Shown here in pieces: positions 2,437 through 64,000 of a DNA stretch of 64,000 nucleotides. Source of the stretch: Eucommia ulmoides. Taxonomy: Eukaryota > Streptophyta > Magnoliopsida > Garryales > Eucommiaceae. Under the pieces are notes generated by a model. It was not told the DNA's origin. It worked only from the letters and a program-made list of their open reading frames with translations, and searched no databases. Every line of letters begins with the position of its first letter. Position 1 is the stretch's first letter. Position numbers and translations under genes: made by a program. The stretch is from contig CM028329.1 in assembly GCA_016647705.1 (NCBI GenBank), positions 61,583,231 to 61,647,230 of the forward strand. The letters are read 5' to 3'.

Positions 2437-4244
2437 GGGCCCGTTTGGTAACCATTTCCGTTCTCATCCCATGCAGTGGGATGGGATGGGATGAGAATTA
2501 TGTTTCCTTCTTGGGAGCAGAATAACGTTTGGTAACGACAATTTTTTTTTTCTGTTCTGGGAACAGAATTGTGTTTGGTAACGATTTTACCCTAAAAATC
2601 AAGAACGAACCCTAAACCACAAATTCAAGAACAAATCCTAAAACAAATTCAATAATAAATTCAAGAACACCAAGAACAAATTCAAGAACAACAATCACAA
2701 ATCCAAATCTTTATTCGAGAACACCAAGAACAATTTCGACTTCGAAATCCGAAACCCAAAATAGAACACCACAAATCAAAACGATTTCGAAATCCCAATC
2801 CAAACCTTCATGTTTCTGTTTCGATTATACAACGATTTCGAAATCCCAATCGAAACCCACAAATCGTTTATGTTTTGATTTCGATTTCGAAATCGAAATC
2901 AAAGGCGAAGCAGACGCGGAAGAACGAAGGCGAAGCAGCCACGAACGAACAAAGACGAAGAAGATTGATGGATGAAGACGAAGAAGCAAACATCCTTGAA
3001 CACGAAGCAAACGACAATGTGGAAGGTCCAAATTCGAACAAATTCGACATAGGATTTCGATTTCAAACGCGAAATCGATTTCGATTTCAAAAAATCAATC
3101 AGATTTCGACGAATGCGAAGACGATGGCGACGAAGGCGAAGACGATGAACTGATAGAAGGAATCGACGGCGAAGTGAGGTTGAAATCGACAATCGACAAA
3201 CTGAGAGGAGGTTGAAATCGACGATCAACAATCGACGAACAAGACGCAAGAACACAAAGAAAAGAAAAAGAAGAGAAAAAAAAAGACAGAAAGAAAAGAA
3301 CCTACCAAAGATCGAAGGGGGGTCTCACTAATAATTACAATAATTCCCTCCGTGTCCTTTTTGGCAAATGAGAAAGGGATGGGTACAAATGGAAAGGTTT
3401 TTTTTTTTGTTTCTCAACCCTTGAGGAAAAATGAGCATAATTCTCATTTTAGAATGTGATGGGAATGGAAACAAAAAAAATAAGAGTGGTTACCAAACAC
3501 TATTCCCAAACAGAAATCCAAAAAATTTGGGAATGGGATAAAAATTTCTGGAATGGGAACAGTTAGGCCCCGTTTGGTTAGTGTTCCCAACCAAACCCAA
3601 CCCAACCCAACCCAAAAATTTAGGGATTGATTGTTGGGAACGCGTTTGGCAACGCACAAAACCCAACCCAACCCAACCCAAAAAATAGGAATTGATTCTC
3701 AAAATCCTAAAGAAACCAGAAATAAAAAAAAATTGTTTCTTTTTGTGCCCAAAAAACTCAACCCAAAGTTTTCAACTTCTGACTTCATCTGCCGGCCGAC
3801 CACCACCACCCGCCGCCGCCGTCCGGCGACCATTCGGCGACCGACCGCCACCTCCGGCGACCTTCCGCTGCCGGCGGTTACCTCCGGCGACCATCGCCGG
3901 CCGGCGATCGTCCGCCGTCTCCGGCCACCTCCGGTGACCTTGCACTGCCGCCGGCTACCTCCGGCGACCGTCGCCGGCCACCTCCGGCGGCGGTGGCCGT
4001 CCGACCACCTGCCGCCGCCGCCGCCGCCATCTGGCCGCCACCCAAAAAAAAAAAAAATTTAGTTTTAGGATAAAATCGTTACCAAACAAATTCTGTTCTC
4101 AGCACAAAACAAAAATTGTCGTTACCAAACGTAATTCTATTCCCAAAATTCTCAATCCAACCCAATTCAACTCAACCCAACCCATTCCAGTTGGGTTCAA
4201 AAAAGTGGGAACACTAACCAAACGCCACCTTACCAAACGAGACC
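2437..4244. mobile_element. PIF/Harbinger-like element, interrupted by a second one
   Basis: The left end GGGCCCGTTTGGTAACC pairs with the right end GGTTACCAAACGAGACC-like sequence that resumes at 4230, after the nested insertion. The flanking triplets are TAA (2434-2436) and TAG (4245-4247), close to the TWA target preferred by PIF/Harbinger. Without the insert and its duplicated TTA the element is about 1.14 kb. Its interior holds many short repeats of the type GATTTCGAAATC, which are self-complementary. A short acidic/basic frame at 2875-3153 is low-complexity and I do not call it a gene. Confidence 0.7.
3566..4229. mobile_element. nested PIF/Harbinger-like MITE with GC-rich core
   Basis: The terminal repeats GGCCCCGTTTGGTTAGTG and CACTAACCAAACGCCACC are near-perfect inverted copies. 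The 3-bp direct repeat TTA at 3563-3565 and 4230-4232 marks the insertion. Removing the 664-bp element and one TTA rejoins the right end of the surrounding element, so the order of insertion is clear. Inside lies a striking CCG/CGCC-rich block (about 3795-4028) in otherwise AT-rich DNA, next to C-rich CCCAA arrays near both ends. No intact protein is encoded. Confidence 0.88.
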
Positions 4245-8800: not shown

Positions 8801-11676
8801 TCTCACTTAACCGCTAACTTTAGGTGGTATTTTTTATTTTTGTTGTTGTAATCACGTACTTGTTATTACCTGAGAACGTGGTTTCACTTGCTTCATTTGG
8901 AATTTATCAGGTATTTATATGTGAACAAAAGCTATATACCCGAACCCAACTGAATCAGCACGTTAACACTGGTGACTCTGAGGTGGATGGAACGGAAAGT
9001 GAAAGAGGTGGCTTCATGGGGCACCCCATGTGTGAATTCTGCAGAACTCCATTTTATGGGGATAATGAGTTGTACTCACATATGTCTACCGAACATTATA
9101 CCTGTCATATATGTCAGAGGTAGATTTTAAAATTTCAATTAAAAAGATGAGGTCTTTTAATTTCTTTTGAAAAATTTACTAGTAATCAGACGTTTTAAAT
9201 TAATTTTTTGCAGGCAAAATCCTGGACAGTTTGAGTACTATAAGAATTATGATGATTTGGAGGCATGATGATTTCCTTTTACCGTGTGATATGGAAATGT
9301 TAATTTAAATTAACTATTGCCTGTGATTCAAAATTTACATATTGACAAATATGGTCTTTCTGTGCAGATCCACTTCCGTAGAGACCACTTTTTATGTGAG
9401 GATGAGTCATGCCTTGCTAAAAAGTTCGTTGTCTTTCAATCTGAGGCTGAAATGAAGGTGATTTTTCCACAAATAATATACATATATATACTTACACTAG
9501 TAATTACCTGTGCTTGAATGCACTATTTAATATTATTCAATTGAAAATTAATTTTATTTAATTTCAAATTAAAAATGTAAGAATGCAGTTATTAATTACC
9601 TTAAATTATCTAAACTATATAATAAATGGCATGCATTGCACAGAGTTGTTAAAGAAATGAATACAAAGGTTCCAAATGTATAATCCAAGGGATAAAAATA
9701 TCTTTTTGATTAAATGGTTGATATTTACTTCACATACCTTCTAATAGATTTCAACCATTCTATTAACAAAAAATAGTGTGGAGCCCACATCGTCCAGATT
9801 TATAATTATTATATATATATATATATATATATTATTTGTTAAATTTGATTCTTGAACATCATTTGTCTAGCAAAATTTCGGATTTATTAATTCTTCGTTC
9901 TTTGTAAACTTTAATTTCAGAGGCACAATACTTTGGAGCATGGAGGGCGAATGCCTCGTTACAAGCGTAACGCTGCTCTTCAGGTATGTCTTATCAATGG
10001 ATAAATTTGGCTCCTCTGGATATATTTTAGTTCATTTTAACACTTGTATGCTGGTTTTCTTACCTTGTACATAGATACCTACCAGCTTTCGATATCACCG
10101 AAGCAGTGAACAGGAAAATCGTCGTGGAAGGGGACGGGGACGGACTTTCCATCGTGATTCTGCCGATGATACTCAACTCTCCCTGGCCATTGAAGCCAGC
10201 TTAGAGACAGCTAATACCAGACATTACAATGATCCTTCAATATCTGGACATGTTTCTGATCGTGCTGAAACAAGTGATATTGGTCCAATCATTCAACCGT
10301 TTGAATCATTAGATGTTACAGACTCTGAACTGCCATCAAGATACCGCGAAGCCTTGTCACTAAGCTCAAGGAACACACCCATTCAAGAATCTTTCTTCCC
10401 TCCCCTTTCCATGTCATCTGGTAGTAGCAGTAGTACTAGTCAACAAAAGGAGGGTTTACCTAAGAATACCATGGCAGAACGGCTTCGTCGTAAAAACCAG
10501 AAAAATGTGACTGTTCTCAATTCAGCTCAGGCATGGCCAGCAGCAGCTGGTGTTCAACGGCCTGTACAGCCACCAGCAATAAATCCAGCCCATTTCAGGC
10601 CCTTAACTAATAGTCCTGTTCAGATTAAGCAACCACTAACAGAAACTCGACCACCACCACCACCACCCAGTTATTCAAATTTCCTTCAGGTACGACCTGC
10701 TTCTGCTGCTGGTTCTTCTAGCTCGTCAAGGAGTGTAGGCAGCACCGGTAGGACCAGTCCTCAAAATGCATCTTTCGACCCTCCACTCTCTGATTTTCCT
10801 CCTGTATCAGCAAGTGGTCGAATTGTTCCAAAAGTGGAAGATGTTCAAACGGCAAACAAGTCATTAGTTGAAAGAATGCGCACAGCTCTGGAGTTTGACG
10901 AGATAAAATACAGCACCTTTAAGGATATATCTGGACAATACCGTCAGGGGCAAATAGATACAGAGACTTATTATGTGTGTGTGGAGGAGTTTGGGTTGTC
11001 TCATCTTGTTCCCGAGTTGGCTAGACTTTGTCCTGATGCCCAGAAACAGAAAGAACTTATTCAAACCCATAATGCCAGATCATTGAGCAATGGCCCAAAT
11101 GAAAATGGCGGTGGCAGCAGTATTAGTAGCCATAGCAGTGTTGTATGGAAAGTGGGAAATGGTTCGAAAAAGGGTAAAGGAAAGTCGTCTTTGAATGCTG
11201 AAAGTAGTATTCCAAAGGATAACTCAGCGGATAGTTTTTTGAGTACCATAAAGAAACTGCAGTCGTCTTTGAATGATGTTTCTGGTGAAGAGGTGGAGGT
11301 GTTGAGGAAGGATGGGTACCGATCCGCTAAAGGCAAATCAAAGGTGATGATTGATGATTCACCTGTAGAATTGAGTTCAAATGATCCATCTTTGAAGCTT
11401 AAGGGTCCTATCGAGTCCCAATCATCGGCCGATGGAGATGGAAGAGGCAAGCAGAAGAAGAAAACATCAAAGTTTCACAGGGTTCGTTTGGGTGATGGGT
11501 CGATTGCATCTGTTTTAGACCTTAAAAATTCTGATCGTGTCCCAGAACCAGACCCGGATTTAAGGGAGTCGGCGTTGGAGAAGAACCCTAATGAAGGGTT
11601 GCCTGCACGTGGCGTTTGGCGAAACAGTGGAGGTCAGAGGCTGCTGGGTAATGCTCCAAAAGAACCCAGAAAATGA
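5877..11676 (+). CDS. ZNF598: RING/C2H2 zinc-finger E3 ubiquitin ligase, ZNF598/Hel2 type
   Basis: Seven exons, 5877-6044, 6827-7129, 8911-9119, 9214-9262, 9368-9457, 9921-9983 and 10075-11676, keep one frame and give about 827 residues, typical for plant homologues. Residues 5-45 form a RING: C5-C8, C20-x-H22, C26-C29, C42/43-C45. A series of C2H2-like fingers follows (for example CEFCRTPFYGDNELYSHM and the H/C pairs of exons 3-6), then an arginine/glycine stretch, a long Ser/Pro-rich linker and a conserved helical C-terminal block (about 10880-11070). In yeast and animals Hel2/ZNF598 recognises collided ribosomes and ubiquitinates small-subunit proteins to start ribosome-associated quality control. 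A cytosolic role here is inferred from homology. The start is the first ATG and gives an immediate RING. The intron after exon 4 appears to use a GC donor. Intron 2 is 1.8 kb and has no recognisable insert. Confidence 0.93.
9263..9367 (+). other. probable GC-AG intron
   Basis: Exon 4 of the ZNF598-like gene must stop at 9262, because the next codons are GCA and TGA. No GT donor keeps the frame there. The junction GAG|GCATGA with the acceptor TGTGCAG|ATC at 9367/9368 restores the family sequence DDLE-IHFR. A GC donor is the rare but known variant. Retention of this 105-nt intron would end the protein after about 244 residues, leaving RING plus the first fingers. Confidence 0.75.
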
Positions 11677-16381: not shown

Positions 16382-19300
16382 CTACATTTCAATGGCTTCT
16401 TGCCCAGAAGAAAACCTGGTAAATACCCAATATTTACATTGAACAACTTCTCTCCCATTCCCATTAAGAATTTACAGAAGAAAAAAGAGGAAGGGGGGGG
16501 GGGGTTGACACTTTGCAGCCCTGAAGTTTGACCATTATTTCACTTTGATCCTCATAGTTGCAATTTGAGCACCACCTTTTGAACCTTTTCATCCCACTTT
16601 AGTCCAAATGAAGAAATGTGTCCCAACCCATGGCAGGTTTCCTACCACACGGGGTAAGGAACTAATGTTATAAACACGAGTTTCTCCTGTCGCTCGGACA
16701 AGGAAAGTATATCATGATCGAGAATATTAGGATGTCAGACCTCTCAGGGGCAGGGAACTCCATTACAATTTTCTGATTTTATGGACATTTTCAACCTCTT
16801 TCTTTCCCGCTTACAAATTTTCTACAAAAACAATCTCCCTATATCTATATTATGTTATATCAGTATATCTATATTTCTAGATATAAAGAGTCAAGCGCAT
16901 GGCATGCAACTTATTTTCTGTAAAAAATTGTAACGGGAATAATGACATGGACTATAGTGAATGATTAATAAACTTTAAGGTGTTATATGTTCAAACTGAA
17001 ACCATGGGGACCAAAGTGAGATTTTCGTCAAACTTCTCAAGGCTATAACGTGTAGGGGGAAATCATCGAAATTGAAAAAATTACCTTGGCATTTGGAAGA
17101 AACATGATTTAAGAGAGGCCATATTGCGAGGAGAGGCGGCAGGCAGCATTGGGTTGTTGTTAGAAGAAGATGAACTAGTACTTGTTATTACAGAGGGGCT
17201 ATCATCGGTTTCAGCAAAGGCGGCGGTGTGTCTATCAGCAGCCGATTTTGTAGGAGAAGCAAATAGGTTATCAGGTAGAATGTGCTCCAAGCTGCTTCAT
17301 TTGACACAAAAAACAGTCAGAACAATCTATATATAACCGAAAAAGGCTAAACAAAACAAGGTTCTTATTCATTGTCTGTGTGTGTGTGTACACACACACA
17401 CACATATATATACACACACCTTTCGTGTAGGCGAGAGTCGTCCAGATTGGCGTTTTCGTTCTTGCCATTGCCACTATAATTTGCATTTTCTTCATTGAAA
17501 GCCTCAATCGATTCATGTGGAATCTCTTGATCAGTCTCTTTAGTTGGAGAATCTATTGTATCTTGGCTTTCCTTGCCTGCAACAACAATATAAAATGTAA
17601 AAAAAAAAAAAAATGGATCGAAAACAGCATTTGATGAAGATTTTTTTGTTTTTCAAGCCAACCTTCAAGTTCTTGGCCCGCAAAATCGGATGGAAGCATC
17701 ATATTTTGAGTGATTCGAACGTGAGGTTGAGTAGGAGAAGGAATGTGATGAACATTGGACAAGAGATTAGGCTGAAACTGATAGTTATGGTGATGATTTT
17801 TCTCCATGAGTTGTAAATTCATCAGCCTTCTTCCCTGGAATTCGATGTTTTGCTGCACTTCAGCTTGCTGCTCCTCCATTTTCCTCCTCAACATCATCTC
17901 CGGAGTGTTGTAAAACATTCTTGCTCCTATATGAAAACAACCCAAAAAATAATATTATTAGGGTGTGTTTGTTTCAGCGGAAAAAGGATGGAAAAACGAA
18001 GAAAAAAATATTCGGAGGGAAATTGGGAGGAAAATACACAATTTCCTAAGAACATCTTTTCCACACCAATTTGGGGATGGAAAATGAAAAAAAAAATACT
18101 TGTTTGGAACAGAGGGAACATGGGAGAAAAAGGAATACAGGAAGGAAAACGCACAATTTCCTAACCAAACATAAAATCTAATATTTTCCTTCTTTTACAT
18201 CCTTCTAACCAAGAGTTTTCTTTCCATTGTCCTATTTCATCCTTCCAACCAAACAAACCCTTAATATTATCCTCTCGTTTTTCTTTTCCTTTCATTTTCC
18301 CATCCTTCCAACCAAACATCTTTTTTTTTTTACTTTCACTAACCAAACAAACCCTTAATCTTCTACCATACAAGAAACCTCGAAAAAAAAACACTTTCTT
18401 TTTGCTCACCAAATGGTAGTTCATAAGGCTCTCTTTCGATCCCGGAAGGACTTAAACATGCCGGAAAATCCCCTCTTTCAATCTGTTGATGCTGGTGTTG
18501 ATGCTTCCTAAACAAAAGGAAAAACCCAACATTAATAATCCAAAAAAAAATTAAAAAAAAAACATCAGGGGATTAAAATTAAAAGAAAAATCATTTACTT
18601 TTCTGGGATTTTCCCCTTCTCCTTGTAGGGTTTAACAAGAACGCGAGAATCACACACAAAATGAGGATTTCCTTTTGCTAAAATGAGCTTTACTGTCTCT
18701 GGATGAACAAAAGTAACAAACCCAAACATCCTCTTTTGCTGATATGGAATCCTCACATCTTGAACTGGACCAAATGTGCTTCAAAAACACAAAAAACCCA
18801 ACTCAATTTCTTGATTCACATCGCAATTACATGAAAAATACACAGACAAAAAGGTCGATTTTTCCGGGGGAGGGGGGGGTGGGTTTACCTGAAATATCTT
18901 GAAACATCTTCTTCTCTGAAGGTACTATCAGCTGGAAAGGTTAAGTAAATCTGTCTAGAGCTCGAATTTGCGCTTCCTAAGAAACCCATTGCTGCAAATT
19001 CGTTTCTTTCTCCTCTTCCCCACCCAAGTCTCTGAAATTCTTCCCCCATCATTAATGAAGCAGCTGTAGATCTACAATGTAGCATGATTTCATCAAGAAC
19101 ATTGAGTTTTGAGGGTTTATTTGCTTAAATAAAGTTGAAGATTTTGAAAATGAACAAAGTCAAACTCAAGAAATCGTCTGTAACAATGGGATTTAGGAGC
19201 AGATCGAAGCCTGTAAATACCTCTGGTTATCGTTGAGGAAGTTCATGCATTTGTTGTAGGGAAAAGGGTGAGGTCCGGCCGCCATGAGCTGAGACGCGGC

Positions 19301-20275
19301 GGCGAATCGCTGCTGTTGCTGTTGTTGCTGCTGGAGAGCCTTCATTCTTAGGAGCTCGTCGAACCCATCGAGCTTATTTGGTGAGCCAGCAATGGCGGCG
19401 CCGGACCCGTCTGGGGAATCGGTAAATCCACCGTGGAGGAACTTGCAGCTGGTTCCGTTCTTGCAGAAGCCCCTCGCGAAGTACATACAGGGTCGCCAAC
19501 CAAATCCAGCGCCACCGTCGTCTGAACCACCGCCAAGAAACACATCGTTCACAGAACAACTCCGCCTGTGGAGGAGGTGGTGGTGGTTGTCGCCGCAATT
19601 AGCAGAATCAACCCAATTTCCACTGCTACTTCTATACGGAAACACCATCGAATCGCTCCGGCCACTTGGGCTGACTATGGGATCGATTAAATCTGGGTTC
19701 TTCAGAGAAGATGGCTCGTCCAGGAACGGGAACTGGTCTTTCACCTGAAAACCGTTGTGCTCCTCGTTACTCTCGCTACTATTACTACCATAAAAAACTA
19801 GCGGAAATGAAGGGCTCGAAGACGCAGAAGAGGTACTGGTGGTTCCGTTAACGACGGCAGCGTAGGAGAGAGAAGAGGGTGGTCTCGGACTCCTGTAGTG
19901 ATGGTCAGAGAAGGGCGAAGCAGACCACGGCGACGAGGGTGAAGAAGGGTTCATGTGAAACCCATTTTCGGGGATAATGATTCTTGGCGAAGATTGGGGA
20001 AATGAGTTGGGTCTGTTGGGGTTACAGATGGCGTTGAAAGGAGAAGGAGAAGACGGCGTAGAAGGTGCAGATGAGGTGTTCGACGAAAGCCCCAAGCAAC
20101 CTTTAGCTTGATTAATGACGGAAACCAGTAAACTCTCAGGGCCAAAGGCTAATCTTATCATCTCCTTCTCTCCTTGGTCTTGGATGAGTACATACCCCAT
20201 GATTCTTGAGGCGTTTTCAGGATCCAAACTCTGGATCCTTGAAAGAACCACTTTCGTGGCCTCATATGTGTCCAT
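16382..20275 (-). CDS. CCCH zinc-finger and RRM RNA-binding protein
   Basis: Eight exons in transcript order are 20275-19221, 19071-18889, 18778-18599, 18507-18410, 17926-17663, 17576-17420, 17294-17085 and 16415-16382. All junctions fit GT-AG and preserve frame, giving 2181 nt and 726 residues. The N-terminus (residues 1-60) is the conserved block of the plant CCCH/RRM family (C3H46/53/55 group). Residues 263-281 form a C-x7-C-x5-C-x3-H finger. A polyglutamine run lies at 315-322. An RRM spans about 391-470, with RNP2 IYLTFP at 393-398 and RNP1 RMFGFVTF at 429-436. Exon 5 encodes a charged glutamine-rich, probably coiled-coil, segment. The conserved end SCFFQMPR is completed by a 34-nt last exon. 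The family is expected to bind RNA; the specific role of this member is unknown. A CT-rich leader lies upstream of the start at 20275. Introns 4 and 7 carry MITEs. Confidence 0.93.
16495..17060. mobile_element. GACACTTTG-end repeat in the last CCCH intron
   Basis: It begins with a G run and TTGACACTTTGCAGCCC. It runs through the family blocks (CTGAAGTTTGACC, ATGGCAGG-like and TGACATGGACTATAGTGAA motifs, then GGGGACCAAAGTGAGATTTT) and ends near TGTAGGGGG. Copies of the same family occur near 30344, 32462, 52011 and 55537. It is non-coding and sits wholly inside intron 7. Confidence 0.65.
17961..18354. mobile_element. PIF/Harbinger-like MITE in a CCCH intron
   Basis: The left end GGGTGTGTTTGTTTC and the right end CTAACCAAACAAACCC are inverted copies, flanked by TTA at 17958-17960 and 18355-18357. 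A second, internal right-type end, CCAACCAAACAAACCC, finishes at 18260. The element may therefore be two overlapping insertions or have an alternative end. It lies in intron 4 of the CCCH/RRM gene. Confidence 0.8.
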
Positions 20276-20979
20276 GGAGTTCTAGAGAGAGAGAGAGTAA
20301 ACAAACACTACCCAGATTCTCTTTGGATTTCCCCTCCTCTCCAAGAAAACCCTCAGAGTTTTAGAGAGAGAAAATAGATAGAGATGTTGATGGTGGGGAG
20401 TAGGGTTTATATAGTGTGTAAAACCTCTGCTTGCAGAGGGTAGAGAGAGAAAGCGAGGTTGGAGGAGGAGGAGGAGATGGAGGGAGGAGATGGAGAGAAA
20501 TGGGTTAAGACTTGTGTGCTTATTCTGGGGAATTATTAGAGAGAGGTGGGTAAGATTTAACAAGTTAAAGAAAATAATGTTTATATCAAATTTATACCAC
20601 TTACACCCCCACTTATTTATTGAAATTGCAAATACATCCCCCCAAAGAAAAATGTAATTCAAAAAGACGGTACTACTCTCTCATGTAGGGACGGCAATTA
20701 AAACCAAACCGACGGGTAATCTAAAGAAATTGAATCAAAAGGACCGATTTTGAAACCGACTAAATAGTTTTGGTTGCAATTTTGATTTTAATTTTAGTTT
20801 TAGGATAACAACCGTGAAATTGAACAGCGTACCGTGTAATCGATATTTTAAATATATTTTTATGATATGTCCTCATTTTTTTATATATTAACAGTTTAAC
20901 CTTTAATATATATATTTTTTTTATTTATTTACAGTTTAATCCCTCCTATATGTATAAATGTTAGGGTTAGATTTTCTTA
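20276..20979. other. 5' leader and promoter side of the CCCH gene
   Basis: On the minus strand this precedes the start codon. It is GA/CT-rich (20281-20500), typical of a plant leader, and contains a possible TATA-like TATATAAACCC at about 20400 (minus strand). Beyond 20690 AT-rich repeat sequence begins (GGGACGGCAATT), perhaps the edge of an older hAT-like element surrounding the one at 20988. No second gene is seen. Confidence 0.45.
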
Positions 20980-24956: not shown

Positions 24957-25294
24957 GGGTGCGTTTGGATGAGTGGAAAATGAATGGAAAAAAAAAAAAA
25001 AAAACTTTGTTTGGTTGGATGAAAAATAAGAAGGAAAAAACACAATTTTCGAGATAATTGTGATGTAAAATGAATAAAATTACAATTATATCCTTGATAC
25101 TATAATTATTAATTTATTTTTATAATATATGAGGGTAAAATAGTAAAAATTACATTAAAGTAAATTATTTTTTCTCCTTTCATTTTTTTTCCTAACCCAA
25201 ATACTATAAAAATGTATTTTTTTTTAAATAAATAAAAATATTATCCTCTTATTTTTTTTTATTTTTTTTTTCATCATTTCAACCAAACAGACCC
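24957..25294. mobile_element. PIF/Harbinger-like MITE, 338 bp
   Basis: The ends GGGTGCGTTTGGATGA and TTTCAACCAAACAGACCC are imperfect inverted copies. They are flanked by the direct repeat TAA at 24954-24956 and 25295-25297. The interior is AT-rich and non-coding. Confidence 0.8.
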
Positions 25295-50031: not shown

Positions 50032-53000
50032 TATATATCTCTATCTTAATTTTAATTTAATACGTTAATTATACTAATTTAAATTCAATGCAGTAATTTT
50101 AAATATATCTAAATTTTATAGGATAGATATACAATTTATTTTTTTGGGTATCATATAAGATTGAAATTAAATTATTCTTTTTGGTACATACGGAAAAAGA
50201 AAAGTGTTAAACTCTTAGGCTTTTTACAAGGGAGATAAACTAGATATCTATTAGGTCACGGATAAAATGGATTAATAAATGAAAAGATGGATAAATTAGG
50301 ATATGATATAATAATAATTTAATGATCAATCAAATAAAAGTTAAAATAAATTTGAATGTTGGATCACTGTATGGGACTCAGTGATCTCATTTATGAGCGC
50401 AAAAGGGTAGTTAGAAGACAGTTGGCCCTATATGGCTTTTTAAACATAACTATTGAAAAGAAACTGTTCCGTAACTGTTAAAACTTAAAACTATTAAATT
50501 AATATATATTTTATTTATTTATTTTAATATTAATCAAATATGAAAAATAAAAATAAAATAAAAAATTGTATGTATTAACCTAAGAATAATATAAAAAAGT
50601 TTAAATGAAAATATTTTATATGTTCGAAATAAAACATTTAAAAAAAAATTAGATACATAATTTTTTTGGAAACTTTTTGAAAGGTCTTAAGATTCCAAAA
50701 ATAATTTTCTAAAGATCATTTCATGTGTAAAAAAATCACTCTTACATAACTCCATAAAGTGGTATTTTTATGAGATGAAACTTTTGGGCAAATCTTCCAT
50801 TTTTTTTCCGCTTGTATTCACCTGTGAATAATACAAAAATTTATGAATAAAAATATTTTATATGTTCGAAATAAAAAAATAATAATATTAAACTAATTAA
50901 TTTAAATATCTTAAATTTCGCAAATAAAAAATTAAAATATCATCTCATAATAATTAAATAAAAGTACAGACAATCATGAAATACAAAAGTTTCCTCAATT
51001 AAAAAAAACTATTTTTGTCTTTTAAAAGCACAATTTTCCTGACTTTTAAAACAAAAAATCACCCGTAATTTTTTTCAAAAAAATCAATTACCAGACAACC
51101 TAAAAAAGGTTAAATCACACTTTGTAGTACTAAAGTCCGAATGTGATTTCAATATGTCTCCTAAAATTTGAATTTCGTCTCTAATTAGTCCAACCAACAC
51201 ATTTCAACCATCATAATTGTCAAAGCAGTAATAGCGCACCACACATGTTAATTTTTTTCCATAAAATTTTCTTCAATTATGATGCACGAAGCTGGGTAAA
51301 TCGAGATTACGCTCGAACACGAGGGGTGCAAAGTGCAATTTAGCCCCAAATTATAAATCAATCTTGGGGGTAGGTGGAGAAATAAGGAGGACAATTATTG
51401 CATGTTTTATGAAGTTTAATGAGTTTGGCATTGATATTATTACAGCAGAATGTGCAGAAAGTTAAAAAATAAAAAAATAAATTAATGCTCCAGGCTTCTA
51501 GGCCTGCAAATTATGTTAAAGGAGTGTTCATGGGCCGGGTTGGTCTGGACCCAATCTAGACATCGGGCGCTATTCCCCGCCTATTGTAAAATGCATAAAA
51601 CCCAAGTTCGACCCTATATAATTTTTTTAAATAATTAATTTTTTTTTTTTGACTAAAATATAATCTATAAAATTATTCTAAAATAAGAGGGAAGTTTTGA
51701 ACGGTATACCTCAAACTTGGCGGGTGAGCACGCAGAGCGGGTCCCCGGGCCCATGAACACCGCCTCATTGTTCTTTCTACATGCAAATCTACAAAAAACA
51801 AACAAACAATTCAGCAGTAGTAATGATTAGTAAAAGAACCAAAGGATTATCATTAACCAAATGATTGCTTCCAACAGGTAGGTTGGCGAATAATGTTGTG
51901 ATGACAGGAAATGTTTTCATCAACGGCAAGAAGAAGAGGCTCGATTATGGCGTAGTTGTAAGTTACCTAAACCCTTTAACCTTATTACAAGTTTTTGCAA
52001 GAAAGCAAAAGGAGTTTTGACACTTTGTACCCTTGAAGTTTGACCAAAATCTCACTTTAATCACCAGGGTTTCACCTTAAAGTTTCTTAATCATCCCAGT
52101 ACAGTCCTGAGTCATTGTTGCCATTACTTGACGAAAAACGACGACACATCATGCATCTGAGTGTTTTTAAGATGTATTATGGGCAATTCACCCTCCTCCT
52201 TCCAACCCAAATACTCAAAAATATATATAAAACATAATATATATATATATGCACACACACACATACATGTGTGTGTAGAAAATTTCAAGGGCAGAAAGAA
52301 AGAGAATAGACATGACAATAAAGTCAACGGCGGAGCTATTTAATGCACAGGGAGACTCAAGTCCGCCTGAACATTTGACTATTTTCACTATTATCCCTAT
52401 ATTTTCAGAAATCTCGAAATTTTTTACAAGCCCCCCCTTCCCAGGAACTATAAAAATATTTAATAAAAATTTGCCATTGCTTAAAAATGGTTGGGGTGCA
52501 CGACAATTGACTATTTATTGTTCAAAATTGTGAAGGAGTAAAAGATTTGGACTGAAGTGGGATGATTACGGTACTTCATAGTGTTTATGTGTTCAAAATT
52601 GCAACTATGGGGACCATAGATGGTAAAACTTTAGGGGGTGCAAAGTGTCAAAACCCCAAAACGAAACAATGCAACAATCTTCAATCTAATTTTGGTTTTC
52701 AGGCATATGTGACACAAGAGGATGTAATGTTAGGAACACTCACTGTAAGAGAGACAATAGCCTACTCAGCCCATTTGAGGCTACCCACCAGTTTGTCCAA
52801 AGAGGAGGTAAAAGGGATCGTAGAGGGAACAATTATGGAGATGGGTCTTCAGGATTGTGCAGATCGGATCATCGGAAACTGGCATTTAAGAGGCGTGAGC
52901 GGCGGTGAGAGGAAGAGACTCAGCATTGCCCTTGAAATCCTTACAAGGCCGCGGCTGTTGTTTTTGGACGAGCCCACTAGTGGGCTCGACAGTGCCGCAG

Positions 53001-56000
53001 CCTTTTTCGTGATTCAGGCACTGAGGAATGTTGCCCGTGACGGAAGAACGGTTATTTCTTCCATTCATCAGCCTAGTAGCGAGGTTTTTGCGCTGTTCGA
53101 TGACCTGTTTTTACTGTCTGGAGGAGAAACGGTTTACTTTGGCGAAGCAAAGATGGCTACAGAGGTGAAAAATAATGAGAATTTTCATCAGTTCTCGTCC
53201 GTTTGGTTGTAAGAATCAAAAACACTTTTCCCCTACAGATATGAACTTATTCTGAGATATATCATATGTTTCTTCATGCAGTTCTTTGCAGAAGCAGGAT
53301 TTCCATGTCCGAGTAGAAGAAATCCTTCTGATCACTTCCTTCGTTGTATTAACTCGGATTTTGACATTGTTACAGCCACATTGAAAGGATCACAGAGGCT
53401 TCGGGTATAAATTTAGCTGTATTTTTTAAAAAATCTTAGGAAAAAAAAAAACTAAAAAATAAGCGTTATTTTTGTGTGTACCTATTTACAGGAAACAGAG
53501 AATGCATCAGATCCTTTAAGGAATTTGGCAACTGCAGAAATCAAAGCAGTGCTCGTAGAGAAATACAAACTCTCTAACTACGCAGCCAAAAACCGAGCTA
53601 AAATCAGACAAATCTTGACCATTGTAAGAATTTCAAAACTCGATCTTTCTACGATTTGTTATTTATTAATAAATCAGGACTGTTTTCTTTAATGTCTTTT
53701 CATTAAGGGTTTGGATTAATTTGAGAGGAATGAATGGTTGAGATGATGTGATGAAATATTCAAGAGCGAAAATTTCTACCAAAAAATATTACACTCCCAC
53801 TTCCAAAGCTGTTGAGTTAAATTATATATTGCCTTTAGACACAGGGAATCCCTAGTTTTATATAAATGCCCATGTATTGCAGGAAGGACTTGATATCAAG
53901 GCAAGACGAGGAAGCCAAGCAGGGTGGTGGAAGCAACTCTCGACCCTGACAAGGAGATCGTTCATCAACATGTCTAGAGACGTGGGCTACTATTGGTCGC
54001 GGATAGTAATCTATATGCTCGTATCTATCTGTGTAGGAACTTTATTTTTCGATGTCGGCACTAGCTATACTGCCATCTTAGCTAGGGGAGCTTGTGGAGG
54101 GTTCATTACAGGCTATATGACATTCATGTCGATCGGAGGCTTCCCGTCTTTTATCGAGGAAATGAAGGTAAAAAATACCAAACACAACCTTAATCTCAAC
54201 AAAATCGAGAATCAATCATTGGCTAGAGTGGCGGAGGCAGGAATTCCAACGGGGGCACAAGAAGAAAAATAGAAAAATGATAAATAAAATATAACTGCTA
54301 GGAAAATTAATAAAAGTTACTTATTCACCACCAATATATAATGAAAAATAAACAACTAGCATCATGATTTGCAGAACTAACATTATGTATTTAAATCCAA
54401 ATTTATTTATTAACTTATTTAGATATATCTATTTTTTTAACTAACAATAAAATTAGATAAATTAAGAGAAGAAAAAAAGGGGTAAAAAATAAATTAAACT
54501 AAGGTAAAAAGAGAATATTAGGGTACTTAACCTAAATAAAATACTTAAGTTTAGTATATGAAAGTTAAAATCGTCAAATGATATTGTACAAAAAAATCAT
54601 TGAATTTCTAGAGAAAGTAGTGTAATTCATCTTGGAAACAACCTAGAGGTCTATTGTGACCTGGAGGTCTCGGATTCAAATCTTGAAAACAACCTCTCTG
54701 TATGCATGGGTGATGTTTCGTACATCTAAAATGGCAACAACCTTCGTGCACTGGGTTGCCCTTTTAGTAATTTAATTCATCTAGATTGAGATGGTTCGTC
54801 GACTTAATTTCAAGGGTTCTCGTGTATTTTTTTAAAATTTGAGAGGGGGCGGGTGCCCACCCTGGACACATGCTAGCTCTGCCCCTGATTGGCTAATAAT
54901 TCCCGTTATTTGGCAGGTTTTCTATCGTGAGAGGCTGAACGGGTATTATGGAGTTGCGGTGTTCATACTGTCGAACTTCTTCTCTTCTTTCCCTTTCTTG
55001 GTGGCGGTTTCAGTGATTAGTGGGAGCATCACGTATTGGATGGTGAAATTCCGGCCTGAGTTTTCTCACTATGTCTATTTCTGTCTTAATCTTTTCGGGT
55101 GTATAGCTGTCGTGGAAAGCTGCATGATGATTGTGGCTTCATTAGTTCCCAACTTCTTGATGGGGATCATAACCGGCGCTGGAGTCCTTGTAAGAACATC
55201 TCTAAGAGAGTGTTTGGAAGCACAGAATGCACGCACGCAAAATTTTCAGATTTTTACAAGCGTTCATTTTTAATTCCAATTCTTGTACATCCAAACACAA
55301 CCTAACTTAATTATTACTTTTGGTTCTGAGATTTAACTTAAAAGGGAAGATCCTAATTGAAGCTGTTTATTCAGGGAATCATGATGATGACTGCCGGGTT
55401 CTTCAGGTTGCTGCCTGATCTTCCCAAGCCATTTTGGCGCTACCCAATTTCGTATATGGGTTATGGGGCATGGTCACTACAGGTATTTCCTAAAACCGAA
55501 ACACACACACACACATACGCACATATATCTATAGAGGTGTTGACACTTTGTATCCCTACAGTTTGACCAAAAAGTCACTTTGGTCCCCATGGTTTCAATT
55601 TGAACATATAGCACCTTAAATTTTTTTAATCATCCCAATCCAATTTTCAACAAAAAAACAACCATCTACCATGCACCTTAAATTTTTTTAATCATCCCAA
55701 TCCAATTTTCAACAAAAAACAACCATCTACCATGCACGACTATTTTTAAGAGACTTTATAGGCAATTCCAACATCATGATAATAATAATAATGTAAAATG
55801 CAGGGGTCATACAAGAACGACATGATAGGGCTAGTGTTTGATCCACTCGTACCTGGTGATCCAAAGCTGAAGGGTGAAGACGTCATAAAAAACATGTTTG
55901 GGTTGCCGTTGGATCACTCCAAGTGGTGGGACTTGTTTGCTCTGTACGCAATTCTCGTCTGTTATAGGCTCACCTTCTTCATTGTTCTCAAGGTGAAGGA

Positions 56001-58672: not shown

Positions 58673-59012
58673 TTAGGGTTTGTTTAATAACGACTTAATT
58701 TTTAAGTGCTGAAAATTAAGTGCTTAAATTTTAAGTGCTGAAAAATTAAGAAAGTTGTTTGATAAATTGTGCTGAAAATTTAAGTGCTGAATTTTTTTTA
58801 TTTGTTTGATAAGTGCAAAATTTGAATTGCTGAAAATTGTTTAATTTACATAATTGCCCTTGAATCAAGATAATACAAAAAATAAAATAAAAATAAATAA
58901 ATAAAAATAGAGAATAAAACAATAAAATAAAAACACCAATAATATACTAAGAAGTTCAAATAAATAAATTATCACAAGTCAACAATAACATAGAATTCAA
59001 CAAAAACAAAAA

Positions 59013-60385
59013 TTAAATTCGGGAATTAAACAATTCAATTGCAATTCTCTCTCTCAAGCTAATCATATATGCTTGATCTGCTTGCTTGCTTCCCCTTCTA
59101 GTTTCAATTTCTGAAGTAATTATTTTATCATCAAATGATTCATTTACTTCATAACCTTCAGTAAATTGGTCAAAAAAATCATCAGTCACAATTGTTTTCC
59201 AAAGATAGTTATGAATAGCTACACAAGCAATAACAATATTTCTCTGCACTCCAAATGTATATGATGGCATCAACTTCAAGATTGGAAAACGCATTTTCAG
59301 AACCCCAAAAGCTCGTTCAATTACATTCCGTAATTTGGCATGAGCATGGTTGAAAAGTTCTTCTTTCGTTCTAGGACCGTTACTCCTAAAGTCATACAAC
59401 CAATATCGTACATTACGATAGGGCGCCATAAATTCCCTTGTATGAGTATATGCAGCATCGCATAAATAATAGTTATCTGTATAATTAATATATAGAAATA
59501 TTATTCAATCGCATAACTCATAAATATACTAAATTGTATTATACAATTAAATTAATATGAAAAATAATGTAAAAAGAATTTACTTGGCAAAGGAAATGAA
59601 AAATTGTTCGCTGGATCATTCATAGTTTCTGACAACACTCTTGCGTCATGTGCAACACTTTCCCAATCAGCCCATAAAAATGTAAAAATCATATCGAAGT
59701 CACATATCACAAGCACATTTTGATAACACTGTCCTCTCCCTCTTCCTCTAAATGGAACTTGCTTATCAGGAGAAATAACCGCATGAATAAGAGTTCCATC
59801 AAGTGCCCCTACAGCACCCTTTAAAAAGAATCGGTTAATTCAAACAAAACACCAAAATCAACTACTAAACAAACAATTTAGATATTTTACCTGAAATATT
59901 TGCCTAAGGCGTTGATGGTATTGATTTGAACTCTCATTGCTTGTTGTCGGGATGATCATTTCTTTAGAAAAATATATCATTGCATCCAATACTTCATGGA
60001 AAATTTTATGTATAGTTTGAGTTGAATGGTTGAATCTTCTCTTCACACAACGAATTCTTGAATTGTGACTTAAAATTAAGAGAAATATTGCCATTTTCTC
60101 TTTAACGGAAATGTAACGACTATCTTTTAACCATCTTTTGTTTTCGAAGTAGGTACACAACCTTATGAATGGGTCAATCTTCATCCTCAACATTTCGAGA
60201 CAATGAGAATCATTTCCGTTAACAATTTCTTCTACATATAATTTTCCACTAAGAGCGGAATCGGTATCGGGTCTTCTTCTATTTCTCCTTATTTTTTTCA
60301 TTAACAAAAGAACTGCAACTTTCTTTAAGACGATATTTGAATTCTTTACTTTCATTCTACAACAAAAATAAAATACTTTAATCAC
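59013..60385 (-). CDS. PIF/Harbinger DDE transposase (HARBI1-like)
   Basis: Three exons on the minus strand, 60355 (or 60385) to 59891, 59818-59584 and 59476-59013, splice in frame to 387 residues from the ATG at 60355, the usual size. The N-terminal part has the helix-turn-helix-like block of plant PIF proteins (KEKMAIFLLILSHNSRIRCV). The DDE_Tnp_4 domain is intact. The first Asp is in GALDGT (D162), the second in AHDARVL (D213), and the Glu is in RNVIERAFGVLK (E287), which fits the R-x3-E-x6-K pattern of IS5-like enzymes. It would cut and paste DNA at the element's terminal repeats, normally together with the Myb-like partner. Exon joins need no frameshift and no internal stop, so the gene looks recently functional. 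The neighbouring Myb-like gene ends 194 bp upstream of it. Confidence 0.9.
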
Positions 60386-60578
60386 CGGCTAAAAATATTT
60401 CATTGAAATAAAAAGTCAAATATCACATATATATAAAATCTTAAAAAAAACAAATACATAATGAGTCACATATTAAAACCACTAAGCGAATACTCAAATA
60501 CTTATACATCCAAATACTACATTAACATAAAAATTCATAATTGAAGTTCAACAAAAGATAATTCAAAATCCGTTACAT

Positions 60579-61495
60579 TCAAAGAAATCCTAATTTCTTC
60601 GCATTCATTTTTAGCCAATTGATTCTAACTTCTTCGGGTTTTCGAACTAATGTCATCCATTGCTCTCGATGTGATTGACTCTCACAAAAAATACTTAGCG
60701 CCGCAATATATAAAGGGTCATCCATTTGGAGCATTATCATATTATCCAAAGCTCCATTACACTCCTCCATGGTAGGTCCATCCGATTTCTCTAAGTTTTG
60801 CAAAACAGCTTATAGCTGTTTATCGATGTCATCACTTTTCATCTTCTTCTGACGCTTAGCTTTTGAAGATGAAGGTACAGAATCACCCTCTAGGTCAATT
60901 TGTACGCGTCCGATAGATTGAGACGTTGATGAGTACTGGACATCATCGGAAGGTAATCCTATCCTAGAAGGACCCCATGATGCTTCCCCTGTCGCTGTTA
61001 TACCATCAAACAACGCCTTCATTTCATCAGCATATTGCAGACCAACATATCGAAATTGTTTAGCTTCGGGATTGTCCTGTAAGGCATCATATTTTTCATT
61101 TATAAGTTATTATTTTATTATGTAATTTAAATATATATATTTGATAAATAATATCGTACTTCGTGTTACCTTTAAGTATGCGTTCCATTGCTCGGCACTC
61201 CAATTCTTCGTGTTTGTCAATGGATCATCTCCATGACTGGTATTTTTCATTAGTTTGGTACATGTTTGATATTTTTTCTTCATATAGTCCCATTGATTTT
61301 TCATTTGCTTTTGAGTTAAGACAATATTTTTTTTCTCGGCAATCTTCTCTACTATATTATTCCACGCTTCTTTCCTAAGAGTTCCACTAGATTTCTTGTT
61401 ATGATTCGCCTCTTCAAGACATAAATCCAGAAAAAGTTTATATTGATCTGGATCTTTCCAATTAGCTCTAGCATCATTAGTCGATATACTTATAC
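60579..61495 (-). pseudogene. Harbinger Myb/SANT-like second gene, with in-frame stop
   Basis: Exon A (about 61495-61170) encodes a Myb/SANT-like (Myb_DNA-bind_3) helix-rich domain: NWKDPDQYKLFLDLCLEEAN, LRKEAWNNIVEKI, QMKNQWDYMKKKY and NWSAEQWNAYLK. A GT-AG intron (61169-61077) leads to exon B (61076-60579), which continues NPEAKQFRYVGLQYADEM. After a basic KAKRQKKMK segment, TAA at 60812-60810 interrupts the frame. The same frame resumes at once (AVLQNLEKSDGPT) and reaches its natural end at 60579, so a single nonsense change separates the two parts. The start codon is not visible in exon A and may lie in an unrecognised upstream exon. In this superfamily the Myb-like protein helps import and target the transposase. 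The truncated form would keep its DNA-binding part. Confidence 0.78.
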
Positions 61496-62914
61496 CGGTT
61501 TGATTGAAAAAATATAATACAAGTGTAAATTAAAAAACAGAGTAGCTTATTCACACGCAATGATCAAACAAGTAGTATATATACGCTGACAATCTCATAG
61601 GAGAACTAGATTCTTGTAGAATGGAACATTAGAATGACCGTGTCTTCACCGAACCATAAAGATTCATGTGCTACAACTAACATGTATGCTTACATATAAA
61701 TGTTTTGCTTATTTCTCCTGATTAGGTAGAGTATGTGGGTTTGTGTGCGCATTTATACAGTATTGGAGTGTTTGTACTGGATTTTGAATGTTTCTGTGTG
61801 TTTTAGGTCTCTTCGAAATGTTTATACATGTTGAAGCATGATTATTGAAGCATTTCATCTCACTCTGATTCTAATCCTGTTTATGCTTTTAGAACATTAG
61901 CTATGATTGTTTAAGCATCACTTTCTCTCTCTCTGTGACTTGTTCATGTAAGTAAATTTTGAATCGTATGCCTGATCTATTGTTTGCTATAATCTCTTTG
62001 CATTTATTTAAGGAATTTAGAACAAGTGATTGCATGAATTTGCTCTTTAGGATGACAAGTAAAAGGAAAAGAGAAGCATCATAACAATTCTAAGGGTCAA
62101 GATGCATGGAAGCACGACTACACCTACCTAATAGAGTTCCACACTACCTAATAGAGTTCCACCCCAAATTGAATGATTTTTAAAAATAGTGTGTGTTTCA
62201 ATTCAAAAGAGGAGACCCAGAAAACAAAGGAAGTAGGTGAGGCAGGGGTCCTTTAAGATGGCACCTACAAGCCCTTTAACCCCAAAAAACAAGCATTGAT
62301 TACTCCAACAATCTAAAAACAAAATGAAATAGTCATTCCAGAAAACATAGAAGCCTTCCCAATTGGCTAGCAAAGCCTGTATCAACAACAACTAATTTCT
62401 AATCTCCCATCAAGCATCACGCATGCAGAAGTAAATGGAAAGTGATGTGCATCTGAAAAATTGAAACATGTGAACAGGAATTTCGAACTGATGCAAGAAG
62501 GATCTTTCAACGCATACCAATGATTCTATATTGAAACTAGAAACCATGAGAAAACAAACATTAAAACAGGGAAAACTAATAAAAACTAAACCACATCCAA
62601 ACAAGTTATGGAATCTCAGATTCATATCATAAAAGAATCAGGATGAAATAAAACATGCAAACCGGATCACAGTAAACCGTGTATGAAAAACAGAGAGATT
62701 ACCAACAGATAAAATTATGAATATGAACAAAGAAAAAAGAACAAGACTTCAACAGATAAATTGAAATTCAAAAAATAAAATATGAATCCATAACATAAAC
62801 AATCGTAGTTTCTTCTACTATTCCATTGAAAACAAGCAAAAATTTCAGATTTCGAAATAGAAAAACATATATATGAAGAAACTCTAAACCCTAAACTATA
62901 GATTCGAAGAACAT
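61496..62914 (-). other. presumed long first intron of the Harbinger transcript
   Basis: There is no conserved frame. The content is AT-rich with a duplicated ACACTACCTAATAGAGTTCC-like phrase at 62120-62160. The short frames here are not convincing. Confidence 0.4.
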
Positions 62915-62916
62915 AC

Positions 62917-63110
62917 CTCGTCGCTGCCGCTGTCGCTCCTCTTCTAAGCTCGTCGCCGCTGCTGCCGCTCCTTTTCTAAGCTCTCCGCCGCCGCTCCTCT
63001 TCAAAGCTCGCCGGCGTCGCCCCTCTTCTCAGATCGCGCCGCTTCTCTGCACAGCGACGAAACGAAATGGATCGATCGAATGAACGATGATCAGCAGAAG
63101 AGCCCTAGTT
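62917..63110 (-). promoter_or_regulatory. GC-rich leader exon and promoter side of the Harbinger element
   Basis: This is a GC-rich block (62930-63060) of GCCGCTGTCGCTCC-like repeats in AT-rich surroundings, about 290 bp inside the right terminus. On the minus strand it has no ATG. It ends in GACGAG|GTATGT, a strong 5' splice site at 62917/62916. It is best read as an untranslated first exon spliced over an intron of about 1.4 kb to the Myb-like exon near 61495. Confidence 0.55.
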
Positions 63111-63373
63111 CCCTAAGGGCAAAACGGTCAATTCCACTTTTTTTTTAATTTAAAAAATGCTGAGCGCAATCTGTAAAAAAAAATAAGCAAGGGGGATTTA
63201 CTGAATTTTTAACTTAATATTTCACTTAATTTTTAAGCAAACTTAATTAATTAAGTAATTTTTATTATACTTGTCAAACACACTTAATTCATTAAGCACT
63301 TAATTTAATCAGTTTTAAGTACTTAATTTTTTTATTAAACAAGCCCTAAATCAGTCAAATAGTTGATAAATAA

Positions 63374-63858
63374 GTTCCTGTTTGATAACGCAATTAAGCA
63401 CTTAAAACTGAATACATTAAGTACTTTTCAAATTAAGTTCGTTTGATAATAAAATTAAACAATCACTTAAAAAATAGGCCTCACTTAAGAAATTGTTCAA
63501 ATTTTAAGTGACGTGTGATTCACTTAATTTTTTAGAACTTATCACTTAATACCATAGAATATTTAATTATCACAACCGGCATTTTACACCAATACTATAA
63601 AATCTGACAAAAAAATAATACACAAAAAATTATAAATGGAGAAAATACTAAATTGAGAAAAAAATAGCGAGAGAAAGTTATAGAGAGAGAATATTTTAGA
63701 AAAACAAAATTGTAAAAATTATTTTAGGAACAAAAACTTGTACAAAGATAATTTTTTTGAAGTTAAAAGTATTAAAAAATTAAAAACTTAATATATTCAG
63801 CACTTAATAAATTCAGCACTTACAATTTTCAACACTTAAAAATTAACCGTTATTGCCC
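63374..63858. mobile_element. Harbinger MITE related to the adjacent full element
   Basis: The left end CCTGTTTGATAACGCAATTAAGCACTT-type sequence and the right end CTTAAAAATTAACCGTTATTGCCC are imperfect inverted copies. TAA flanks both sides (63371-63373 and 63859-63861). Subterminal TTCAGCACTTA and AAGTACTT motifs match those inside the ends of the 4.67-kb element 27 bp away. No coding capacity is seen. Confidence 0.72.
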
Positions 63859-63861
63859 TAA

Positions 63862-64000
63862 GACTTCATCTTGTAAATATATATCATGATTTATTGATAT
63901 AATTGATCCATTTGCAGCTGTAATCCACTGCTTTTTAAAAAGAAAAAGAAAACTCAAAGATCATGTAATATATGCCAACTACCAAGTGAAGCCATCCCTC
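63862..64000. other. window edge, no feature
   Basis: Nothing recognisable. Confidence 0.5.

Follow-up and report, generated by a model that had tools for sequence, protein, structure and literature searches.

PePIF1 of Phalaenopsis equestris is described, in the portion of its report available to us, as a 5053 bp element with 19-bp ends starting GGGYCYGTTTG, a TTA duplication, and two genes placed head-to-tail, a two-exon ORF1 of 272 aa and a three-exon transposase of 427 aa (PMC6327408). The family represented in the 64,000-nucleotide stretch of Eucommia ulmoides DNA analyzed here (the window) is similar in belonging to the class of about 5 kb, with an ORF1 of 271 aa in two exons in the copies where that frame is open and a transposase of 387 aa in three exons. 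It differs in its host and in the broken ORF1 of the window copy, and the likeness is one of described architecture. The Master / MtPH-M lineage of carrot and Medicago likewise has ORF1 before the transposase, a G(N)5GTT end motif and a TTA/TAA duplication, and lineages A5 and A6 have two transposase introns, according to the sections consulted of one report (PMC2213677); this comparison is one of features. Ping/Pong with mPing of rice resembles the present case in its two proteins and its Tourist-type MITEs with related ends, and transposition in both Ping/Pong and zebrafish Harbinger requires ORF1 as well as the transposase, as stated in excerpts of the source (PMC2836001). The rice comparison differs in that the MITE set described here has diverged further than the coding copies. 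Ping/Pong, furthermore, we take to represent the Pong subgroup, unlike the PIF-type element of the window. Among plant MITEs shown to transpose, a review table has, in the part accessible to us, three of the PIF/Harbinger type, all from rice (PMC12595863). For the family itself, titles and abstract openings of literature on Eucommia ulmoides and Harbinger yielded no report.

The segment 58676..63346 of the window (4.67 kb, coding strand minus) is a real PIF-type PIF/Harbinger transposon, delimited by inverted ends and by matching boundaries in sister copies. Its terminal inverted repeats, at 58676..58690 (+) for the 3' end in gene orientation and 63332..63346 (-) for the 5' end, read GGGTTTGTTTAATAA and, inverted, GGGCTTGTTTAATAA, and agree at 14 of 15 bases. 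For two fixed 15-mers, the composition-based chance of such agreement is about 1e-6, while 20 Markov-resampled 300x300 pairs, searched throughout, gave best matches of 12-13 bases. The ends fit the definition of 14-25 bp inverted ends with a G(N)5GTT motif, as worded in the excerpts of PMC2213677. Together with a D-D-E transposase of the DDE_Tnp_4 type and a second, Myb/SANT open reading frame, they are among the features of the PIF group, which also include a 3-bp TTA/TAA target-site duplication. ORF1 lies upstream of the three-exon transposase, and both genes occupy the minus strand.

We searched the window's own assembly (946.67 Mb in 391 contigs), where the window stands at C5:61583231-61647230 with a GC content of 35.4%, using 1401 bp of transposase DNA as query. 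The best 40 matches scored, from 280 first-look candidates, were 92-100% identical to the query, the window copy and one partial match included, with 38 of the 40 at 94% or better. The window accounts for the 100% match, 38 others are near full length at 92-99%, and the last is 98% identical over 1127 bases. Within the same best 40 of 280, 31 reach at least 96% identity, and the 20 best apart from the window show 97-99% over 1401 bp. Thirty of the 40 scored copies were examined, namely the window copy and 29 sisters (L010-L038). A 3' end matching at 12-14 of 15 bases occurs at the corresponding place in all 29 sisters, with TTA or TAA beside it in 25 (the exceptions being L026, L033, L035 and L037). 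The 5' end is at the matching place in all ten of the 29 sister copies that were read there, and eight of those ten have GGGCTTGTTTGATAA at the terminal repeat position. All ten, being read at both ends, carry exact target-site duplications in different flanks, TAA in eight (L010, L011, L012, L014, L015, L017, L019 and L023) and TTA in two (L013 and L022). The terminal inverted repeats recognized in the initial annotation are borne out. The window copy itself has TTA on the left (58673..58675) and TAA on the right (63347..63349), the only unmatched pair among the 11 copies with both ends read. Its flanks are therefore TWA-type to the letter, as had been claimed, but do not form a direct duplication; most simply, one base may have altered since the element inserted.

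The transposase gene of the window copy is an unbroken frame of 387 aa in three minus-strand exons: 59891..60355, with its ATG from 60355; 59584..59818, containing the codons of D162 (59800-59798) and D213 (59647-59645); and 59013..59476, containing those of D240 (59459-59457) and E287 (59318-59316) and a stop at 59015-59013. Both introns, 59819..59890 and 59477..59583 on the minus strand, are GT-AG, exactly at the positions originally predicted (59890-59819 and 59583-59477). The spliced product matches Pfam DDE_Tnp_4 at 6.4e-16, its homologues reach 63-64% identity, and the catalytic triad D162/D240/E287 is intact. The earlier reading of a cleanly spliced transposase with D162-D213-E287 holds for frame, introns, D162 and E287, while D213 gives way to D240. 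In the published pattern, as given in part of its source, the second catalytic D comes 75 positions after the first and an intron starts six residues before the second D (PMC4565680). Here D162 and D240 are 78 positions apart, the second intron falls six residues ahead of D240, and the P0002 structure model places a strand at 240-242 followed by D244, the equivalent of window D240. D213 was rejected as the second catalytic Asp because published spacing and structure model both point to D240. A Foldseek comparison with the PDB returned no match at E <= 0.001 (the best, to ISCth4 chains, had E 0.007), and a PDB sequence search gave a single chance-like match at E 0.14. Six relatives from Asteraceae and tobacco (P0006, P0007, P0041, P0079, P0098 and P0103) are annotated as single proteins with both Myb/SANT and DDE domains, which reflects either a true fusion of ORF1 with the transposase or a joining of the two by the gene models.

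The window transposase departs from 14 of 122 conserved columns. We considered reading all 14 as decay of this copy and dropped the idea, since ten are common to L010. The remaining four, G206D, G209S, G248E and R326W, are absent from all five other open copies (L010-L014), and position 209 is Gly in each of the 79 homologues having a residue there. At columns conserved in at least 95%, the window transposase has 6 private departures out of 83, where its nearest protein relatives have 3, 5 and 6 of 82; the median among homologues is 2, and the window ranks 83rd of 90. Because of the four altered residues not found in L010-L014, the window transposase may be weak or dead although its frame is open; the count of private departures, which does not exceed the highest among its nearest relatives, speaks against this.

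ORF1 is broken. Its first exon (61170..61487, minus strand) encodes the Myb/SANT domain, detected as Pfam Myb_DNA-bind_3 (PF12776) at 2e-13, and a GT-AG intron (61077..61169, minus) separates it from exon 2 (60579..61076, minus). In the window, ATA replaces the start codon, leaving the Myb exon frame with no ATG before the domain, and an in-frame TAA at 60812-60810 breaks exon 2, with 76 residues lying past the stop. The Myb-like partner reported earlier is thus present as a domain, in a frame that is broken. Among the 30 genome copies, 28 have ATG at the start site, L030 being the other exception, and 28 lack the stop, its only carriers being the window and L028. Fifteen ORF1 homologues were found; all eight that were aligned carry a residue where the window has its stop, and seven of the eight extend to the C-terminal end (P0130 is cut short). 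With two ORF1 lesions, and with related elements needing both proteins, the window copy is, on its sequence, not autonomous. An inverted repeat at 60803-60821, AAACAGCT-ATA-AGCTGTTT, has the stop in its loop. A palindrome-templated origin for the stop was entertained and dropped, as the same arms occur in many sister copies without the stop.

Farther upstream, a putative non-coding leader exon (62917..63100, minus strand, its 5' start inferred) ends at a GTATGT donor from 62916. The surrounding part, 62833-63347, is common to the ten sister copies read there, at 87.7-98% identity, and all ten retain the donor, making the leader exon first proposed from the window plausible, if putative. GC-rich tandem repeats with units of 26-32 bp occupy 62917-63042. 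Between 61568 and 62833, copies show two sequence forms. This 5' part was suspected to be a captured host segment, but L012 has portions of both forms, and alternative deletions within one long intron would be the simpler account.

Across the 30 copies, six have an open, spliceable transposase (the window and L010-L014) and the remaining 24 have lesions in it. ORF1 is open in seven (L010, L012, L013, L018, L020, L023 and L029), and both frames are open in three (L010, L012 and L013). The copy closest to that of the window is 1.33% different, and L010 differs from L013 by 0.61%. A FastTree tree is star-like, with internal branches that are mostly very short and at most 0.7%, the value for the L028-L030 pair. 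Terminal branches measure 0.38-3.8%, that of the window 1.07%. This shape is as expected for bursts out of few sources. At an assumed rate of 7e-9 substitutions per site and year, the window branch would represent about 1.5 million years, or less if methylated C mutates faster. Set against the majority state in its 12 closest relatives, the window copy shows 28 departures over 2881 sites, and C>T or G>A makes up 23 of these. Those 12 relatives depart at 13-29 sites, which puts the window among the more changed and within the range, as does its distance from the sister copies, 0.97% against the sisters' own 0.45-1.00%. Over all copies, private changes of the C>T/G>A type number 288 of 582. The excess of C>T changes suggests silencing. 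L028 and L030 (on C10 near 52.0 and 52.1 Mb) lie about 98 kb apart and share their 12 flanking bases; they probably stem from a single insertion copied along with its surroundings in a segmental duplication. The first has the ORF1 stop and the second the lost start. With at least 40 similar copies, a star-like tree and exact duplications in all ten copies checked, recent activity as first suggested is supported for the family, which probably has complete members.

One related MITE accompanies the element. It spans 63374..63858 (-), 485 bp, flanked by TAA at 63371-63373 and at 63859-63861, stands 27 bp from the element in opposite orientation, and has ends 77% and 85% identical to those of the element. 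When 63340-63870 was used as a genome query, the best 40 scored of 3133 first-look candidates comprised, besides the MITE itself, long matches 83-88% identical and three short pieces. By these identities, divergence is greater in the MITE set than among the coding copies. Nine relatives were fetched, and matching TTA/TTA or TAA/TAA flanks were found in three (L052, L053 and L054) and not in six; the automatic end search mis-set some ends, that of the window MITE included, which accounts for part of the six mismatches. A window scan for PIF-like end pairs gave three places in four rows (3566-4229; 17961-18354 or 18260; 24957-25294), where ten mononucleotide shuffles gave 0-3 rows with a mean of 0.7. 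Apart from an A-rich stretch near 25270, none of the three matches the element ends, and among window end pairs the sub-terminal sequence of the element was found in the MITE at 63374-63858 only. The many Harbinger-like MITEs ascribed to the window thus come down to three scanned places and one MITE, of which only the last is related to the element. That the window copy drives them is unsupported, the sole related MITE belonging to the 83-88% set, more diverged than the coding copies. Elsewhere in the window, 10075-11676 (+) is a ZNF598/HEL2-type E3 ubiquitin ligase exon, 52-54% identical to proteins of Davidia, Actinidia, Camellia and Sarracenia. By eye from translation, 52556-53212 (+) resembles an ABCG transporter exon and 19193-20281 (-) a CCCH zinc-finger protein.

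The window segment is very probably a recently inserted copy of a burst-amplified PIF-type family that has lost ORF1 function and could at most move with help from sister copies. Could the window copy nonetheless be active and autonomous, a truncated or alternatively started ORF1 being enough? Its transposase is open with the three catalytic residues present, the exon encoding the Myb domain has no other break, and a further coding exon upstream could supply a start. This is very unlikely, however, as the Myb exon has no in-frame ATG before the domain, the TAA stands ahead of a C-terminal part conserved in homologues, the transposase is altered at G209, an invariant Gly in the homologues, and the flanks are unmatched. 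The initial annotation's view of a near-autonomous element that could be active accordingly fails for the window copy as an autonomous unit, given its two ORF1 lesions and altered transposase residues.

The open transposase beside a broken ORF1 might instead recall a HARBI1/ALP1-type gene domesticated by the host. Transposon ends exist here, though, with dozens of near-identical dispersed copies and duplications in those checked, and an open transposase is common to six of 30 copies, with lesions in the other 24. ALP1, which is domesticated, has moreover lost triad residues, according to the part of its report at hand (PMC4671723), and domestication is scarcely credible at this locus. The TTA and TAA flanks, and the related MITE lying inverted 27 bp away, could also be explained if the left and right ends came from separate insertions of two related elements. 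Such a composite is highly improbable, since the window copy is collinear with duplication-matched sisters, both in the 5' part, where L010, L011 and L014 agree with it at 98%, and through the 3' part.

For the preferred reading, a recent insertion from an amplified family, we propose cut-and-paste movement in which ORF1 (Myb/SANT) would bind the element ends and recruit the DDE transposase, which would cut at GGGCTTGTTTGATAA-type ends and insert at TAA/TTA. The proposal builds on the ends, sister-copy duplications, gene structure, copy number and copy similarity observed here, and takes the two protein roles by analogy from Ping/Pong and zebrafish Harbinger work. The window copy would have lost ORF1 function through the lost start codon and the stop, its other changes being mostly of C-to-T type. 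Mobilising proteins could come from sister copies, three of 30 having both frames open.

Copies by the dozen that differ by a few percent, with exact duplications and several with both frames open in a single assembly, provide candidates in a tree for excision and insertion-polymorphism work, and the family offers an example in which a young burst of coding copies can be related to MITEs that have diverged further. It is possible, if somewhat doubtful, that a PIF family in the genome of Eucommia ulmoides, a long-lived rubber tree, is still mobile and includes several complete autonomous copies, alongside a large set of MITEs with related ends that it may still move.
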